Shown: positions 1-43,144 of the stretch, in pieces | How the letters are laid out: each line of letters opens with the position of its first letter | Numbering within the stretch: the first letter of the stretch is position 1 | Virus record (IMG/VR): IMGVR_UViG_3300043446_002229 | Location: 1-43,144 of that record | Source of the DNA: a virus | DNA length: 43,144 nucleotides | Strand: one strand, 5' to 3' | Program-made: the position numbers and the translations under genes | Notes under the pieces: generated by a model | Database searches by the model: none | Told to the model about the DNA's origin: nothing | Seen by the model: only the letters and a program-made list of their open reading frames with translations

Positions 1-124
1 CCCCCCCCCTCTGCCACGTCTCGAAATCGTCCGGGTTCATCGCCCGTTTCGCTTTCACCCACCACGACCAGCTGCCCGGTGTAGGCGTCCTGTCCATTGA
101 AACCTCCCGGATGAGCACCGCCGC
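1..124. repeat. Left copy of the 124-bp terminal direct repeat (circular contig overlap)
   Basis: These 124 bases recur exactly at 43021-43144. The methyltransferase reading frame runs from 994 down through this segment and continues at 43020, so the repeat is best read as the overlap of a circular assembly, or of a circularly permuted phage genome, and not as a biological terminal repeat. Read on the minus strand the segment encodes the middle of the methyltransferase, in a frame different from the part upstream of base 150. The repeat starts in a run of C. Confidence 0.95.
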
Positions 125-994
125 TCAACGTTCCGACCTTGTCTGCGATAGCACGACTAGCGACTCCGTGTCCGGGTCGTACCTGACCCCGGTCCCGGTC
201 GTCACCGTGCTGGCTACGTCCTGCATGCTGCTGCTGTTGGCGAGAGAGAGAGAGAGAGAGAGAGAGTCCACGTACTGATCCCATGATTCCGCGGTGGCGG
301 GGTCATCAAATGGATCGGGCTTGCGCTCAACTGGCACGAATGTCATTCGGTCGGTGTCGCAAGCCCAACCACGGCTTCCAGAGCCACCGCCAAGGGTTCC
401 GGCAACGTCTTCCCGCGACGCTGCGCCCTTCGCAGAATCCCCGCACACGCCTTCGCGCTCAACAAGTACCGCTCCGGAACGTGGGGTTCGAGTATGTCCG
501 ACAACGAACACTCGACGACGACGTTGGGCGACTCCGAGGAACTGCGAATCCAGAACCCGCCACTCGATGTGGCGATACCCTGCGTCGGCCATCGCAGAGA
601 GGACGACTCCGAAATCGCGTCCGCCGTTGCTTGATAGAAGTCCTGGCACATTCTCCAAGACGAGCCATCCCGCTTGGACATGGGTCGCGAAAGAGAGTGC
701 ATCCCAGAACAGACCTGTTCGCTCTCCGGCAAGCCCAGCTCGCTTACCTGCGACGGAAACGTCTTGACAAGGGAATCCTCCACAAACAAGGTCAACGTTT
801 CCCACGAGGCCACACTCATCAGCCCACTCCTTCGCTGTCACCACGTCGTCATGCTTCGGCACGTCAGGCCAATGCTGGTCAAGGACGGCCCGTGCGTTCT
901 TGTCGATCTCCACTTGGCCGACACACGTCCAGCCGACGTTCTCAAACCCCAGATCGAAACCGCCGACCCCGGCGAACAGGGACACAAACCTCAT
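125..994 (-). CDS. DNA cytosine-5 methyltransferase, N-terminal and central part (frame-interrupted)
   Basis: This is a Dcm/HhaI-type C5-cytosine methyltransferase that transfers a methyl group from S-adenosylmethionine to cytosine in phage DNA. Residues 1-15 hold the SAM-binding motif I (LFAGVGGFDLGF), GGFPCQ around residue 75 carries the catalytic Cys, LENVPG around 113 is motif VI and AQRRRRVF around 155 is motif VIII. After that come repeated target-recognition-like units that begin with a TL or TV and end in LVV/FVP. The frame stops at TGA 125-127, but the minus-strand sequence carries on in another frame with the same kind of repeat (VGTLSGGAHPGG) and reaches motifs IX and X at 42781-43020. 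The ATG at 994 overlaps the stop of the upstream ATPase gene (ATGA). It is either a real inactivated or phase-variable gene, or it contains assembly indels. Confidence 0.9.
   Translation of the reverse strand: MRFVSLFAGVGGFDLGFENVGWTCVGQVEIDKNARAVLDQHWPDVPKHDDVVTAKEWADECGLVGNVDLVCGGFPCQDVSVAGKRAGLAGERTGLFWDALSFATHVQAGWLVLENVPGLLSSNGGRDFGVVLSAMADAGYRHIEWRVLDSQFLGVAQRRRRVFVVGHTRTPRSGAVLVEREGVCGDSAKGAASREDVAGTLGGGSGSRGWACDTDRMTFVPVERKPDPFDDPATAESWDQYVDSLSLSLSLANSSSMQDVASTVTTGTGVRYDPDTESLVVLSQTRSER
242..266. repeat. (GA)12 dinucleotide microsatellite inside the methyltransferase
   Basis: There are twenty-five bases of alternating G and A. On the coding (minus) strand they give alternating Ser-Leu codons in the target-recognition region. 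A change of one unit (2 nt) would shift the frame. At the present length the frame stays open across the tract and reaches the next TRD-like repeat (QDVASTVTTGTG). Confidence 0.95.
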
Positions 995-1773
995 CGCTCA
1001 ATGTCCTGAATCGTCATCGTCGCCGGGTGATAGTCCATCCAAATCGCCGTCTGACCCGTCGCATCCGCAGGCCCGTACCGGTTCTTCACCGCAGCCACAG
1101 CCATCAACCCCGGCTGATCCGACGACAACGTCAACACGGCACTAGGAATCTGCGCGATCTTGCCGTGCAAAGCCGACCGTGGCGGGCACGGATTACCCGA
1201 ATACCCTTCCGACGTGTGATGCAGGATCAGGAACGCCGCATTCGTGTCCCGAGCCCACCACTTCACCTCACGCATCAGCGACCGCAGTGAGCTGAACTCG
1301 TCACCGGACTCATGCGTGACATCAACCGCGTTGTCGATCACGATCAGGTGCGGGTTGTCACCGACCACCATGCGGTACACGTTGATCTCCTCCTCCAGAT
1401 CACCGAGCGTGGGGGAGGCGTCGAACACCCACTTGATGTGGTCGGCGTGGTCACGGATCACACCACTAGCCCACTCAGGGTTAGACAGGATGTGCTGCTC
1501 GACCTCTGACTGTGCTGTGCGGGTGAGCATGGCGATGGTGCGCAGCGCCATCGTGGACTCATGGGAGTCACACGACACGTACAGCGTGGGCACTCGCGCC
1601 ATGACCGCTATCGCAAGAGCAACACTGGACTTTCCCGCTCCTGGCGGGCCGGCGATCATGGACACTTCACCCCGCCGGATGCTGATGCCGCGGTCAGACC
1701 ATGAGGGGAACGGCACCGGGATAGCGGTGCCGCCCCTCTCGATGGTCCGCACGGTGCGGTGAAGATTCCTCAT
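991..1773 (-). CDS. DnaB/RecA-like replicative helicase ATPase
   Basis: This 260-residue P-loop ATPase is of the RecA/DnaB fold. Walker A is AGPPGAGKSS at residues 41-50, Walker B is HLIVIDN near 142-148, and a LILHHTSEG segment near 182-190 resembles the motif that follows Walker B in DnaB-like and RepA-like helicases. It lacks the N-terminal primase-interacting domain of full-length DnaB, so it is a compact core helicase. It lies in the minus-strand replication operon with primase and resolvase genes and overlaps both neighbours by 4 nt, which suggests translational coupling. A RadA/Sak4-like recombination ATPase is the main alternative. Confidence 0.75.
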   Translation of the reverse strand: MRNLHRTVRTIERGGTAIPVPFPSWSDRGISIRRGEVSMIAGPPGAGKSSVALAIAVMARVPTLYVSCDSHESTMALRTIAMLTRTAQSEVEQHILSNPEWASGVIRDHADHIKWVFDASPTLGDLEEEINVYRMVVGDNPHLIVIDNAVDVTHESGDEFSSLRSLMREVKWWARDTNAAFLILHHTSEGYSGNPCPPRSALHGKIAQIPSAVLTLSSDQPGLMAVAAVKNRYGPADATGQTAIWMDYHPATMTIQDIER

Positions 1774-2399
1774 GGGGTCACCCCGAACAAGGACGGTTGC
1801 TGGCGGTACTCCTCAACCCAACCCAATAGTTTGGGAAGGTTTGCCTGCGGGCCAAAGCCGAGAAACGTCCCGTCTGAACTGGCGCACCCCAAGTGGGCAA
1901 AGGCAAGAAACCGTTTCTTGCTGTTGACGCGGCCAACATGTATGGGAATGCGCCGCGTTTGCGCTTCCCTAATTAGGTTCTTGACTTCGCTCCCCAGTTT
2001 GAAGTCCGTGCTTCCTCCTATAAACAGGACATCAAAATCCCAGTCGGTGTTGTCTGCGGTCATCCCGTCCTGCGCAACAAACGCGGCCCGGTAGCCCAGC
2101 GACCGGATCCTTGGAATCCAAGGGCTTGATCTCTTGACCGTGGCAGCGTGATCCCCGACCACGTCAGGAGCCGTAGCAAACAGGCAGGTTTGCTTCTGCC
2201 GTTCTGTGTACTTGCCCAACCAGGCAAACCACTTGTCGTCACCGACGTACGTTTTATCGTTGAAGCAACCGTTATCTGCGGCCCACACCCACCCGTCGCG
2301 GATGATGTAGTTGTTCTTCGGCGTGTTCAACAACCCGATCACCCCATCCGTGAGTAGTTGTTCGGTTCCTGCGACGCGGTTACCGACGAGATAGATCAC
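1770..2399 (-). CDS. dpdA: DpdA-like 7-deazaguanine DNA transglycosylase (TGT superfamily)
   Basis: The protein resembles phage DpdA/queuine tRNA-ribosyltransferase-like proteins, which swap guanine in DNA for a 7-deazaguanine such as preQ0 or preQ1. From the GTG at 2399, recognisable family segments are ADNGCF (41-46), APDVVGD (77-83), FIGGSTD (126-132), HVGRVNS (154-160) and SSDGTFLGFGP (174-184), in the order expected for a TIM-barrel transglycosylase. The open frame extends up to an ATG at 2486, but that part overlaps the transporter gene and looks out of frame, so I prefer the GTG start, which leaves a 20-nt overlap. It lies directly downstream of a VUT-type transporter. No folE, queD, queE or queC gene is in the window. 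Exact base and sequence specificity are unknown. Confidence 0.82.
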   Translation of the reverse strand: MIYLVGNRVAGTEQLLTDGVIGLLNTPKNNYIIRDGWVWAADNGCFNDKTYVGDDKWFAWLGKYTERQKQTCLFATAPDVVGDHAATVKRSSPWIPRIRSLGYRAAFVAQDGMTADNTDWDFDVLFIGGSTDFKLGSEVKNLIREAQTRRIPIHVGRVNSKKRFLAFAHLGCASSDGTFLGFGPQANLPKLLGWVEEYRQQPSLFGVTP

Positions 2400-2886
2400 G
2401 TCGACAGGTGATGACTGCGGAAACCGCCAAAGCAATTGCGGTCTTGACAAGGAACTGACCGACGACGGCCTGCCATGTGACGCCAAATCCGGCGATGGAA
2501 AGGAAGAGCACGGTGTCTACGGGTGCAGATACGACCGACGACGCCAACACGGCAAGCGCAAGTGACCGTTTCCGCAGGGGTGTGAACACCCCCATGTCCA
2601 CCAGCTCAGATACGGCAAATGCGATACCGGAAGCGACCGCAATGGCGGGGGTGGATGTGACCACAGACACAACCGCGCCGATGCCGATGGCCGCTAGTGC
2701 CCACCAGCGTCCCGCCGACTGCTGCACCCCGTCCCTGAGGAGGAGTGCAGCACCAGCGGCGAACGTTCCGGCTGTGACCATTAGGCCGAAACCGATTGGT
2801 ACTAGGCCCAGTGTTGCGGTCATCCAGTTTGCCACAACGATGCTGAGGATGTAGGCGGTCAGCCATGCCGCGCTTCGGGCGCTCAT
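2380..2886 (-). CDS. VUT/YhhQ-family queuosine-precursor transporter (preQ0/preQ1 uptake)
   Basis: This 168-residue integral membrane protein has about five or six hydrophobic segments. Hallmarks of the VUT_1/YhhQ family are visible: IVVANWMTATLG near 16-27, the RDGVQQ motif at 51-56 after a helix, SELVDMGVFTPLRKR at 93-107, and APVDTVLF at 121-128. In E. coli YhhQ imports preQ0 and preQ1. The ATG at 2886 overlaps the stop of the upstream gene (ATGA); the frame is open to 2928, but the 14 extra residues lie inside the neighbour. Placed immediately before the DpdA gene with overlapping ends, it probably supplies that enzyme with base from the host or medium. It acts in the host inner membrane. 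Confidence 0.83.
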   Translation of the reverse strand: MSARSAAWLTAYILSIVVANWMTATLGLVPIGFGLMVTAGTFAAGAALLLRDGVQQSAGRWWALAAIGIGAVVSVVTSTPAIAVASGIAFAVSELVDMGVFTPLRKRSLALAVLASSVVSAPVDTVLFLSIAGFGVTWQAVVGQFLVKTAIALAVSAVITCRRDLSRR

Positions 2887-3326
2887 GCGGGGAAGTTGTC
2901 CCAGTCCGAGGTGCCGCGCGTAACCCACTGCGCGTCACACTGCTGCGCACCCTTCGGCTGCGGGCAGAACCATGCACGCCACGGACCCTTAGCCGACGAT
3001 CCGGAGCGGGCGGTGCGGGGACCGTGAGCGCACTGCGGGACAGTGGCCTGCTGGAACGACGGGGCAGGCGGTGGGGGAGTGCCCCAGTCGGCTGTCGGTG
3101 TCGGAACGGCGGGAGGCTGCTGCGCTGGGGCAGCCAGCGGCATCGCCTTCGCTACCTGACCAGCGCCCTGCAGCTGCTGCTCCAGTGCTGCCAGACGTGC
3201 GACGCGATCCTCAAGGATCGCCAGTGCCAGGTCGTACGACTGCTCGTCGTGACCGTACGCGTTGTGCAGTGCACCGAGCGGTGACTTGAAGTTGGACTGC
3301 ACCAGAACGTTATCGGGAGCACCCAT
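2883..3326 (-). CDS. Hypothetical protein with Pro/Gln-rich linker and C-terminal Cys/His cluster
   Basis: It has 147 residues and no recognised family. An N-terminal part with a helical segment (ILEDRVARLAALEQQLQ near 37-53) leads into a Pro/Ala/Gln-rich linker (about 60-95) and a C-terminal region with Cys and His residues (CAHG, WFCPQPKGAQQCDAQW) that could bind zinc. A GAGAGGTAG ribosome site precedes the ATG. Its place between a nuclease and the transporter, in the replication operon, suggests a DNA-metabolism accessory, but that is inference only. Confidence 0.7.
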   Translation of the reverse strand: MGAPDNVLVQSNFKSPLGALHNAYGHDEQSYDLALAILEDRVARLAALEQQLQGAGQVAKAMPLAAPAQQPPAVPTPTADWGTPPPPAPSFQQATVPQCAHGPRTARSGSSAKGPWRAWFCPQPKGAQQCDAQWVTRGTSDWDNFPA

Positions 3327-4703: not shown

Positions 4704-5156
4704 CTACTTCGCCGCCATGCGAAGCATCTTGCGCCTCACGGGAACATCCGTATCGTGGTCTTTGTACGCCTCAGAAATGTAGTGGAATCCAGCCATATCG
4801 TCGTAGTCGTACCCCACGATCCACTGCTTCACGGTCAGCTCGTGCAGCCACGTGTCGAGCGCAATCCGCTCCCGGTCATTCAGGGTCTTGCCGGCACGCC
4901 TGCGGCCCAGCAGCCGCAGGTTCCGTAGCGGTGTCGCCGTGGCATGGATCGGGTTGATCTGCCACGGCACCTCCTCCTCGTACCTGGCACCGTCAGCTGC
5001 GATCCCATACCGCACCATCGCGTTGGCGATAGCAGACCGCGTCACTACCTCACCGGTCTCCTCGAAGGTACGATCAACCATCTGCTGCTGAGTGAGTCCC
5101 TCGTCAAGCCAACGCGTCAATGTGACCTTGTCAGGGACTCGTGTCCTTGGTGGCAT
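4704..5156 (-). CDS. Helix-turn-helix protein, candidate immunity repressor or regulator
   Basis: This basic 150-residue protein has an N-terminal HTH-like segment: TLTRWLDEGLTQQQMVDRTF followed by EVVTRSAIANAMVRYGI (about 12-52), which looks like helix-turn-recognition helix. The middle (RNLRLLGRRRAGKTLNDRERIALDTWL) is basic and helical, and the tail contains a Tyr/Asp-rich stretch (VGYDYDDMAGFHY). It is transcribed away from the integrase, across a shared 316-bp control region that contains the candidate attP. That placement fits a lysogeny regulator, but the family is not certain, and other HTH genes of this type are annotated only as DNA-binding proteins. Confidence 0.7.
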   Translation of the reverse strand: MPPRTRVPDKVTLTRWLDEGLTQQQMVDRTFEETGEVVTRSAIANAMVRYGIAADGARYEEEVPWQINPIHATATPLRNLRLLGRRRAGKTLNDRERIALDTWLHELTVKQWIVGYDYDDMAGFHYISEAYKDHDTDVPVRRKMLRMAAK

Positions 5157-5472
5157 AGCTTTTCCCCTAACTGCACGCTTGTGTGCGTGTCAGTCAGGAT
5201 AGCAGACAAGTAAACACACGTGACAGTATGGGTCTACGGCAAGTCAGTCACCATCAAAAAGCTGAAAACTGTGGATAACTAGGGGACTTAATTCAGGATT
5301 CAACTACCGCATTTCCCTCACAAAATTGTCCATGTGGGGACTGCAAATCAAGGCGTTGTGTCCGAGGGGGGACTTGAACCCTACCCACTGTGTCAGTCGC
5401 AAAATGGTGTTGATTACTGCCAGATCCTACTGTTACCATCCGATGTAGTCCCACAACGGTAGGAGTGTCACC
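5157..5472. other. Divergent control and attachment region between HTH gene and integrase
   Basis: No gene is visible here. The segment holds a partial tRNA sequence (5358-5381, candidate attP core) and three related octamers: GTCAGTCA at 5189-5196, GTCAGTCA at 5243-5250 and GTCAGTCG at 5392-5399. These could be integrase arm sites or operators. An AT-richer stretch (5250-5300, CATCAAAAAGCTGAAAACTG) lies in the middle. I could not assign a convincing promoter for either flanking gene. Confidence 0.6.
5358..5381 (-). other. attP: Candidate attP core: 3' end of a tRNA gene
   Basis: Read on the minus strand this segment is GGGTTCAAGTCCCCCC followed by TCGGACAC. That matches a T-loop (TTCAAGT), the 3' half of a T-stem and an acceptor-stem 3' strand. 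The 5' half of the T-stem does not pair (mismatches), and no acceptor 5' strand, D-arm or anticodon arm is found next to it. So it is a tRNA tail and not a gene, as expected for an attP core that recreates the host tRNA upon integration. It sits 91 bp upstream of the integrase start. Confidence 0.72.
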
Positions 5473-6510
5473 ATGACAAGGAAGCCCACAGTAAGCGAAG
5501 CTCGCACCTCGTTCCGCTACCACCTGGTCTCGCGGGGCCTGAGCGAGCAGACGGTCAAAAACCATATGCAAACATTGAACAGATGGCTTGCACTGGTCGG
5601 TGATACGCGCATCGACCAGATCACCAGCAACCATGTGGACAGGTTCTTCGGGGAGGGCAACTGGTCCCCGAAGACCCAGAACCTGTACTTGTCCCTGCTG
5701 CGAGGTGTCTTTTTCCCGTGGTGCCGGAGGCAAGGATTCATGCCTCGTGATAGTGACCCTACGGAGGGATGGCGCAACGCTAAGTCAGAAAGGTCCGAGC
5801 AGCTGTGGCTGCCGGTGGACGAGTTCCCGTCGCTGCTGGAGGCAGCGGACAACCCCCGTGACCGGGCGGTCATCGCTCTGGGCCTGTACACGTTCGCCCG
5901 CGGATCAGAGCTGTCCACGCTGCGGATTCAGGACGTGGATCTGGACAAGAACCTGCTCACGTTCTACCGGTGGAAGACCAAGGACGCGGACCTGATGCCG
6001 ATCAGTGCCGAACTGTGGGAGGAGATGGACCGCTACCTGGCGTACTACAAGGTCAATCAGGGGTTTGAGATCAAGCCGGAGTGGTTCCTGGTGCCGGTCC
6101 GGTCCAAGACCGTCCCGGTGTGGGATTACGAGAACAAGGTCATCGTTCCCGGCCTGCGCCGGGAAGCCGATCTGCTGCCGACGCAGCGCCTGTACCGGCC
6201 CTATGAGCCGGTGAAGCGTGCCCTGCGGAAGCTGGGCTACGACCCGAAGGGCAGCGGTGCCCACACCCTCCGTAGGTCTGGCGCTAGGGCGCTCTTCGAC
6301 AGGCTCCGGTCCGAAGGCTACGACGGTTCCCTGCGCCGGGTGTCCAGCATGCTTGGTCACAAGGACACGAAGACGACGGAGATCTATCTGGGCCTGTCGC
6401 TGGAGCGGGAGCAGCGCAACGAACTGATCGCCGGCCAAGTGATGTTCCCGAGCGTGCGGAACGCTACGGTGATCCCGTTGAGGGAGGTCAATGGTGGCTA
6501 CCGTGGCTAA
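5473..6510 (+). CDS. int: Tyrosine recombinase integrase
   Basis: This 345-residue phage integrase has an N-terminal SAM-like core-binding domain (about 8-105). The catalytic domain shows all active-site residues: Arg143 in FARGSELSTL, Lys168 in RWKTKD, His264 and Arg267 in HTLRRSG, His296 in LGHKDT and the nucleophile Tyr305 in TTEIYLGL. There is no obvious arm-binding N-terminal zinc domain, so it is a short XerC-like integrase. The ATG at 5473 follows TAGGAG. It is expected to recombine the candidate attP at 5358-5381 with a host tRNA gene. It faces the HTH gene divergently and converges on the lysis genes. Confidence 0.93.
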   Translation: MTRKPTVSEARTSFRYHLVSRGLSEQTVKNHMQTLNRWLALVGDTRIDQITSNHVDRFFGEGNWSPKTQNLYLSLLRGVFFPWCRRQGFMPRDSDPTEGWRNAKSERSEQLWLPVDEFPSLLEAADNPRDRAVIALGLYTFARGSELSTLRIQDVDLDKNLLTFYRWKTKDADLMPISAELWEEMDRYLAYYKVNQGFEIKPEWFLVPVRSKTVPVWDYENKVIVPGLRREADLLPTQRLYRPYEPVKRALRKLGYDPKGSGAHTLRRSGARALFDRLRSEGYDGSLRRVSSMLGHKDTKTTEIYLGLSLEREQRNELIAGQVMFPSVRNATVIPLREVNGGYRG

Positions 6511-42784: not shown

Positions 42785-43020
42785 GCTGGCTCCTGTACCG
42801 CAGTGTCAATAAGAGCGGCGACGTACTGTGCGGCGTTCACGGTGACGGCGTTGCCCATCTGCTTGTACCTAGCGGAGTCGGATCCGATAGCGGTCCAATC
42901 GTCGGGGAAGCCTTGCAGGCGCTCGCATTCACGCGGCGTCAGCCTGCGCACAGCAGGGCCAGTAGCGACGACGGTTGCCCTGCTGTCACCGGAATCAAAA
43001 CCGTTCAAAGTCGGACACAC
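42781..43020 (-). CDS. DNA cytosine-5 methyltransferase, C-terminal part
   Basis: The frame encodes the end of the methyltransferase whose start is at 994 on the circle. CPTLNGFDSGDSRATVVA is the last target-recognition unit, RRLTPRECERLQGFPDDW is motif IX and YKQMGNAVTVNAAQYVAALI is motif X with the GN dipeptide. It is in frame with the upstream part only if the homopolymer at 43020-43029 has 8 or 11 bases, not the 10 seen here. The GTG at 43020 is an artefact of that break and not a likely start. Confidence 0.88.
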   Translation of the reverse strand: MCPTLNGFDSGDSRATVVATGPAVRRLTPRECERLQGFPDDWTAIGSDSARYKQMGNAVTVNAAQYVAALIDTAVQEPA

Positions 43021-43029
43021 CCCCCCCCC
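43020..43029. repeat. Run of ten C (ten G on the coding strand) in the methyltransferase
   Basis: Ten consecutive C. On the minus strand GTGGCAGA is followed by ten G and then TGTGTCCG. The upstream repeat frame (RFRDVAE) reaches the CPTLNG frame only with 8 or 11 G. Nine of these C are also positions 1-9 of the window. Long homopolymers are prone to polymerase slippage and to assembly error. Confidence 0.95.
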
Positions 43030-43144
43030 TCTGCCACGTCTCGAAATCGTCCGGGTTCATCGCCCGTTTCGCTTTCACCCACCACGACCAGCTGCCCGGT
43101 GTAGGCGTCCTGTCCATTGAAACCTCCCGGATGAGCACCGCCGC
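43021..43144. repeat. Right copy of the 124-bp terminal direct repeat
   Basis: Identical to 1-124. It closes the genome as a circle of 43,020 bp. It contains the middle of the methyltransferase. Confidence 0.95.

Follow-up and report, generated by a model that had tools for sequence, protein, structure and literature searches.

The window analysed here is the whole of the IMG/VR virus record IMGVR_UViG_3300043446_002229, a stretch of 43,144 bp. Its ends share a direct repeat of 124 bp that is 100% identical, and given this terminal repeat the genome looks complete and either circular or terminally redundant. Family-model searches found an integrase gene, and the nearest relatives of the terminase TerL are those of Streptomyces phages such as Manuel (47.8% identity). 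Because an integrase is present and the terminase is closest to Streptomyces phages, a temperate actinophage is a fair reading of the record, in agreement with an earlier reading that was made from the sequence only (the sequence-only reading).

A tightly packed operon on the minus strand includes genes for an exonuclease, a gp49-like protein, a transporter of the VUT family, a small DpdA-like protein, a DnaB-like helicase and a C5-cytosine DNA methyltransferase (Table 1). ATGA overlaps are found at three of its joints, namely 2886/2883 between the gp49-like and transporter genes, 1773/1770 between the DpdA-like and helicase genes, and 994/991 between the helicase and methyltransferase genes. 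The transporter and DpdA-like genes overlap by 20 nt. Both lie on the minus strand within 1770-2886, where the sequence-only reading had placed an overlapping two-gene module for the salvage of 7-deazaguanine precursors.

The C5 methyltransferase that the same reading credited to the phage is not intact in the assembly. The part at 125-994 carries the N-terminal motifs and covers positions 1-162 of the 324 positions of the PF00145 model. Across the contig junction the gene reads in three frames, with a middle part at 90-137(-) and the C-terminal motifs at 42826-42948(-). A run of nine C opens the contig, at the methyltransferase junction. The split frames may stem from an error in sequencing, from a tract that is phase-variable or from true decay of the gene, and these causes are indistinguishable here.

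Table 1. Features of the window, with examples of the QueF-like gene from other loci
Feature	Position	Strand	Remarks
Direct terminal repeat, copy 1	1..124	(.)	exact identity
Direct terminal repeat, copy 2	43021-43144	(.)	exact identity
Integrase	5473-6510	(+)	family-model searches
Exonuclease	4135-3332	(-)	first listed gene of the operon
gp49-like gene	2883..3326	(-)	directly upstream of VUT; PF25690, 28.3 bits
VUT/QPTR queuosine-precursor transporter (COG1738, YhhQ-type), 168 aa	2380..2886	(-)	PF02592, phrog_4899
Small DpdA-like (TGT-fold) putative base-exchange enzyme, 209 aa	1770..2399	(-)	phrog_15826, E 8.2e-68
Asp42 (ADNG motif), putative equivalent of Asp102 in TGT	2274..2276	(-)	90% or more conserved; end of strand 39-41
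Asp79 (APDVVGD motif), putative equivalent of the base-recognizing Asp156 in TGT	2163..2165	(-)	invariant; after strand 72-76
Gln110 (AQDG motif), putative equivalent of the base-recognizing Gln203 in TGT	2070..2072	(-)	invariant; end of strand 105-109
Asp176 (SSDGT motif), putative equivalent of Asp280, the nucleophile in TGT (E. coli Asp264)	1872..1874	(-)	invariant; in strand 174-177
DnaB-like helicase/ATPase	991..1773	(-)	directly downstream of the DpdA-like gene; phrog_243, E 5.4e-71
C5-cytosine DNA methyltransferase, N-terminal part only	125..994	(-)	PF00145, E 2.2e-47
QueF-like gene (examples)	L003:5625-5951, L175:9006-9317, L104:4021-4350, L028:8163-8495, L034:9668-9985, ten more	-	three-gene module

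The transporter gene starts with ATG at 2886 and ends with TAA at 2382-2380. Its product matches PF02592 (E = 3.8e-14, 53.8 bits with a cut-off of 27.2), and it scores 45.4 bits with the TIGR00697 model "queuosine precursor transporter", just below the cut-off of 50.95. Since the latter score is under its cut-off, we base the family membership on PF02592 and regard the equivalog claim as weaker. The AF2 model of the protein (pLDDT 93.7) contains six long predicted membrane helices. A search of the PDB with this model gave no QPTR structure and only weak matches to ECF S-components, so the fold comparison adds little. The VUT/YhhQ-type assignment, which had been made by motif recognition, is thus borne out by the HMM search.

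The listed open reading frame of the DpdA-like gene begins with TTG at 2486. The most likely start is GTG at 2399, because relatives begin with MLYFANP or MLYLANP, which matches MIYLVGNR from 2399. The protein has no match in Pfam or NCBIfam, and its sole family match is phrog_15826, a family of unknown function to which we gave the working name family S. Neither the DpdA models PF23859 and NF041059 nor phrog_887 match it, and we therefore treat it as a separate subfamily. Profile and fold searches were needed, because a direct sequence search of the PDB gave no match, and neither did an hhalign comparison of the S profile with the single, too distant sequence of E. coli Tgt. With the profile of the phage 9g-group DpdA (phrog_887; A1 against A3) hhalign gave a probability of 91% and an E-value of 1e-6, and the alignment pairs ADNGCF with LDSGAF and APDVVGD with LDGIGD. 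The DpdA of phage 9g, a member of phrog_887, has been proven by experiment to modify DNA.

An AF2 model of the S protein was built on an alignment of 88 relatives (pLDDT 95.9, pTM 0.91). Its top PDB matches in Foldseek are tRNA-guanine transglycosylases, TGTs (E about 1e-4, probability 1.0). The TM-scores with TGT entries are 0.51-0.54 on the query, and other TIM barrels and Cap10 score nearby. The predicted structure, a TGT-type (beta/alpha)8 barrel, clearly belongs to the TGT fold family, although it is a distant match.

The presence of Cap10 (9ntn) among the structural matches is compatible with a protein target, namely that the enzyme attaches 7-deazaguanine to a protein, like Cap9/Cap10 of type IV CBASS, and thereby activates or disarms it. 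That proteins can be deazaguanylated has been established for systems of the QueC family (PMC13329287). We consider this explanation very improbable for the phage enzyme, as tRNA TGTs have Foldseek scores equal to or better than that of Cap10, the Cap10 match is at the fold level only, and no CD-NTase or partner gene is seen beside the pair.

The conserved residues agree with membership in the TGT/DpdA superfamily. In the alignment of 88 sequences D42, D79, Q110, G128/G129 and D176 are conserved, and they are located at the ends of successive predicted strands. The catalytic and base-recognition residues of Z. mobilis TGT are Asp102, Asp156, Gln203, Gly230 and Asp280. The S residues would be their respective counterparts according to a mapping based on the order of the motifs and the ends of the strands rather than on a residue-level structural alignment. 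About 30 residues remain after Asp176, and the 209-aa sequence has no CxCx2C...H zinc site and no C-terminal tRNA-binding part of the kind found in E. coli Tgt. The canonical tRNA TGT family, PF01702, has 0 matches across the whole record. On the basis of the fold, the conserved residues and the profile match with 9g DpdA we assign the S protein to the TGT/DpdA superfamily. The earlier DpdA-like assignment therefore stands, with no match to a DpdA HMM but with these three lines of evidence.

Family models run over the whole record gave 0 matches for each of QueC, QueD, FolE, radical SAM (QueE) and QueF. The same pathway-gene searches give matches in most control genomes. The absence of folE, queD, queE and queC, from which an imported or host-made precursor had been proposed, is thus confirmed.

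To analyse gene neighbourhoods, we scanned viral contigs four times with profiles of the S family and once with a VUT profile, and identified the neighbours with models made from phage proteins. At 80% clustering S is accompanied by VUT in 92 clusters, by queC or queD+queE in 14, by both in 2 and by neither in 29, the last being counted only where the flank sufficed for judgement. VUT and QueC rarely occur together beside S (Fisher p about 1e-6 at this clustering). The exclusion holds from 95% to 70% clustering and is lost at 60%, a level at which types are mixed within clusters. In 93 of the 94 VUT-bearing clusters VUT and S share a strand and lie no more than 500 nt apart, and in 82 VUT is upstream of S; overlap lengths in this survey are inflated by longest-ORF starts. 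When Pfam models were applied to whole records, QueC was found in 0 of 51 VUT records and in 14 of 15 pathway records. VUT was found in one of the 15 pathway records (phiG7, with a score under the cut-off), and there is one mixed case, L087.

Import and biosynthesis supply modules have repeatedly replaced each other, since the tree of 155 S proteins requires 11 changes of the VUT/QUE label; for the QUE label at least 5 are on well supported branches. A tree-based independent-pairs test of the exclusion had too few pairs (median p 0.4-0.6). Because this test is underpowered, we claim no phylogenetically corrected p, just the repeated switching and the co-occurrence. An example is given by two Arthrobacter phages, Aoka with VUT and Sonali with folE, queE, queD and queC, whose S proteins are 70.6% identical.

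The linkage is also visible from the side of the transporter. A scan by transporter sequence alone, whose pattern covers one VUT subfamily only, found 80 viral loci, and 77 of them adjoin a DpdA-type gene of one of three subfamilies. The neighbour is S in 37 loci, a second TGT-like family in phrog_887 in 35, and a PF23859 DpdA in 5 (two were tested directly, with E 1e-78 or better, and a model built on these two identified the other three). Of the remaining three loci, two lie at contig ends and the third has a remnant of S. Pairing in about 100 lineages, the make-or-import alternation and the association of one transporter with three DpdA subfamilies all speak for the salvage logic of the sequence-only reading.

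The same data bear on the possibility that the base-exchange enzyme fed by the transporter acts on host or phage tRNA and tunes translation instead of protecting DNA. The S fold matches tRNA TGTs best among PDB structures, and the cellular VUT adjoins a tRNA TGT, as in the Nocardia genomes examined. Nevertheless, we regard a tRNA target as unlikely: the S protein lacks the zinc site and the tRNA-binding part, its gene sits in a replication/recombination operon, and the same transporter pairs with DpdAs of PF23859 and phrog_887, whose 9g member modifies DNA.

In 15 records, including Aoka and a Nocardia farcinica prophage-like contig, a QueF-like gene of about 105 aa is located between VUT and S (Table 1); two of these records are cut by contig ends. 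The gene was found nowhere else in the surveyed loci, and the present record has none according to the QueF family model. Seven of the nine QueF-like proteins tested pass the PF14489 cut-off. The proteins have an invariant, catalytic-type Cys in a CP motif and no NADPH-type ESK motif, and the closest by sequence is the archaeosine synthase QueF-Like 5jyx (E 0.008). QueF enzymes act on the nitrile of preQ0, and for this reason preQ0 is probably the imported base in phages that carry the QueF-like gene. Weak QueF matches in phiG7, R29Z and G069 lie at or beside FolE and were rejected as cross-matches due to the shared T-fold.

Several other arrangements were observed during the survey. Mycobacterium phage Arib1 (L012) has a truncated VUT at 4965-5297 and no DpdA-like gene, and its sister phages carry both; this is an apparent decay of the module. 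Two TGT-type enzymes, S and a canonical DpdA, occur together with a preQ0 pathway in Sonali (L005), R29Z (L006), phiG7 (L007), L039 and L355, and the S gene of phiG7 is split. In phages that also carry the canonical DpdA, such as Sonali, R29Z and phiG7, S may have a different job. Radical-SAM-like genes, recognized by eye from their cysteine motif, are found at L059:2834-3733 and L094:11174-12217 near S genes without VUT or QueC, where they possibly serve further processing of the base.

We also compared the gene content of hosts with S loci. S and VUT occur together in lysogens of Microbacterium, Planomonospora and Micromonospora (three genomes of the last); these hosts lack TGT and full-length QueC, and the prophage VUT is the only one found in them. 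S alone occurs in genomes of Nocardia, which have a TGT-VUT pair of their own, and in Paenibacillus and Burkholderiales, where QueC and TGT are present. Hosts of the S-only loci of Sphaerisporangium, Actinomadura, Nonomuraea and one Streptomyces are without VUT, TGT and full-length QueC. In the first three of these (L184, L190 and L193) no evident precursor supplier adjoins S. TGT is absent in seven of eight hosts with S and VUT versus four of 22 hosts with S alone (by genus, 5/6 versus 4/13). However, many S-alone hosts are Burkholderiales, and ancestry confounds the TGT counts. Therefore it is only suggestive that the transporter goes with hosts lacking queuosine genes.

Short partial QueC matches near the cut-off, present in many actinobacterial genomes, were discounted as unrelated proteins of the PP-loop type. 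Burkholderiales genomes that have QueC and TGT commonly carry a divergent branch of S (about 30% identical), for example in L218 and other Caballeronia/Paraburkholderia loci. Apart from its S+VUT locus, Cellulomonas sp. KH9 (G001) has a second locus (C2:306113-312071) in which QueC, a further VUT and a weak match to TGT lie within 6 kb, and this second locus looks like a separate 7-deazaguanine element.

These host and survey data can be set against the explanation that the phage uses a precursor made by its host, VUT being incidental or carrying another metabolite. Such a scheme would suit the roughly 29 S clusters without VUT or QueC. The neighbourhoods of seven S genes without either showed no common alternative supplier. 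Pfam, for its part, continues to describe PF02592 just as a putative transporter for vitamin uptake. We nevertheless find this explanation improbable, because nearly all phage VUT loci adjoin a DpdA-type gene (77 of 80), VUT alternates with queC/E/D, and several VUT-bearing prophages reside in hosts without TGT or full-length QueC.

Import of a 7-deazaguanine precursor for DNA modification has precedents. Hutinet and co-authors defined in 2019 a group of DpdA-only phages (group 3, e.g., Orion and Salmonella phage 7-11), suggested uptake or host supply of the precursor, and found YhhQ uncorrelated with any phage group (PMC6884629). The present phage resembles group 3 in having a DpdA-type gene without preQ0 genes. 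It differs in that it encodes a transporter beside the enzyme, and the correlation with YhhQ is strong for the S subfamily. In Vid5 and EC151 a phage preQ0 transporter is located beside full pathways (PMC6266253, PMC8310023). These phages and Seuratvirus share with the present one a COG1738 transporter in a DNA-modification cluster with DpdA, but in them it supplements a full pathway, whereas here it replaces the pathway. About 9% of bacterial dpd islands carry YhhQ (PMC11888242) and thus combine a DpdA-type enzyme with a salvage transporter; unlike the two genes of the phage, the islands also have dpdB/dpdC and often a restriction operon.

A transporter beside a DpdA-type gene can already be seen in GenBank in phages of Mycobacterium (Bhagsy gp54-55), Rhodococcus (ReqiPine5 gp04-03), Arthrobacter (Aoka gp38-40), Pseudanabaena (Pam5) and Rhizobium (RHph_N3_2). 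In these entries the transporter is labelled as a membrane protein, VUT or DUF165, and not as part of a module. Aoka has the QueF-like gene between the two, and the DpdA of Pam5 and RHph_N3_2 belongs to a different subfamily. In a literature search that was not exhaustive we found no paper describing the two-gene module of VUT and S or naming S. The sequence-only reading had called the arrangement a distinct route to DNA protection. This is appropriate for the supply of the precursor, which differs, but not for the chemistry, which is the known 7-deazaguanine route, with uptake already proposed (PMC6884629). What appears to be new is the recurrent make-or-import module and a function for the unnamed family phrog_15826, the uptake idea itself dating from 2019.

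Taken together, the data make it probable that the two-gene module imports a 7-deazaguanine precursor and inserts it into phage DNA, which would make restriction harder. VUT in the host membrane would import the precursor, for which preQ0 is the best candidate and preQ1 a possible one. As a minimal barrel of the TGT fold, the DpdA-like protein would then remove guanine from phage DNA, rather than from tRNA or by acting on a protein, and insert the imported base. Host restriction enzymes would cut the modified DNA less readily. The transporter would stand in for queC/queE/queD, which are found next to the same enzyme in sister phages. Several observations count against this reading of the module. 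Approximately 29 S clusters have neither VUT nor QueC in the record, some S-only loci are in hosts that lack VUT, TGT and full-length QueC, and some phages have a canonical DpdA besides S. The exclusion of VUT and QueC is lost with coarse clustering, and its tree-based test is underpowered. The DNA of Orion, a mycobacteriophage of the DpdA-only group for which no source of precursor is reported, was found to be unmodified (PMC6884629).

A broader proposal is more tentative, and we hold it as possible rather than probable. Phages with S may repeatedly exchange queC/E/D for VUT, sometimes together with the QueF-like gene, and in hosts without a queuosine pathway the modification may depend on precursor from neighbours. 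If this is true, the modification of phage DNA would be environmentally conditioned, and resistance to restriction would be set by the precursor shed by neighbouring microbes. Isolated phages with the pair, such as the mycobacteriophages Bhagsy, Ksquared and GreaseLightnin, grow on M. smegmatis, for which a lack of queuosine genes is reported, and this makes the dependence on precursor directly testable. The module offers a possible answer to the question, open since 2019, of where DpdA-type phages without preQ0 genes obtain the base, and it gives the unlabelled phage family phrog_15826 a testable function. If confirmed, it would tie the restriction resistance of phages to a diffusible metabolite of the community.
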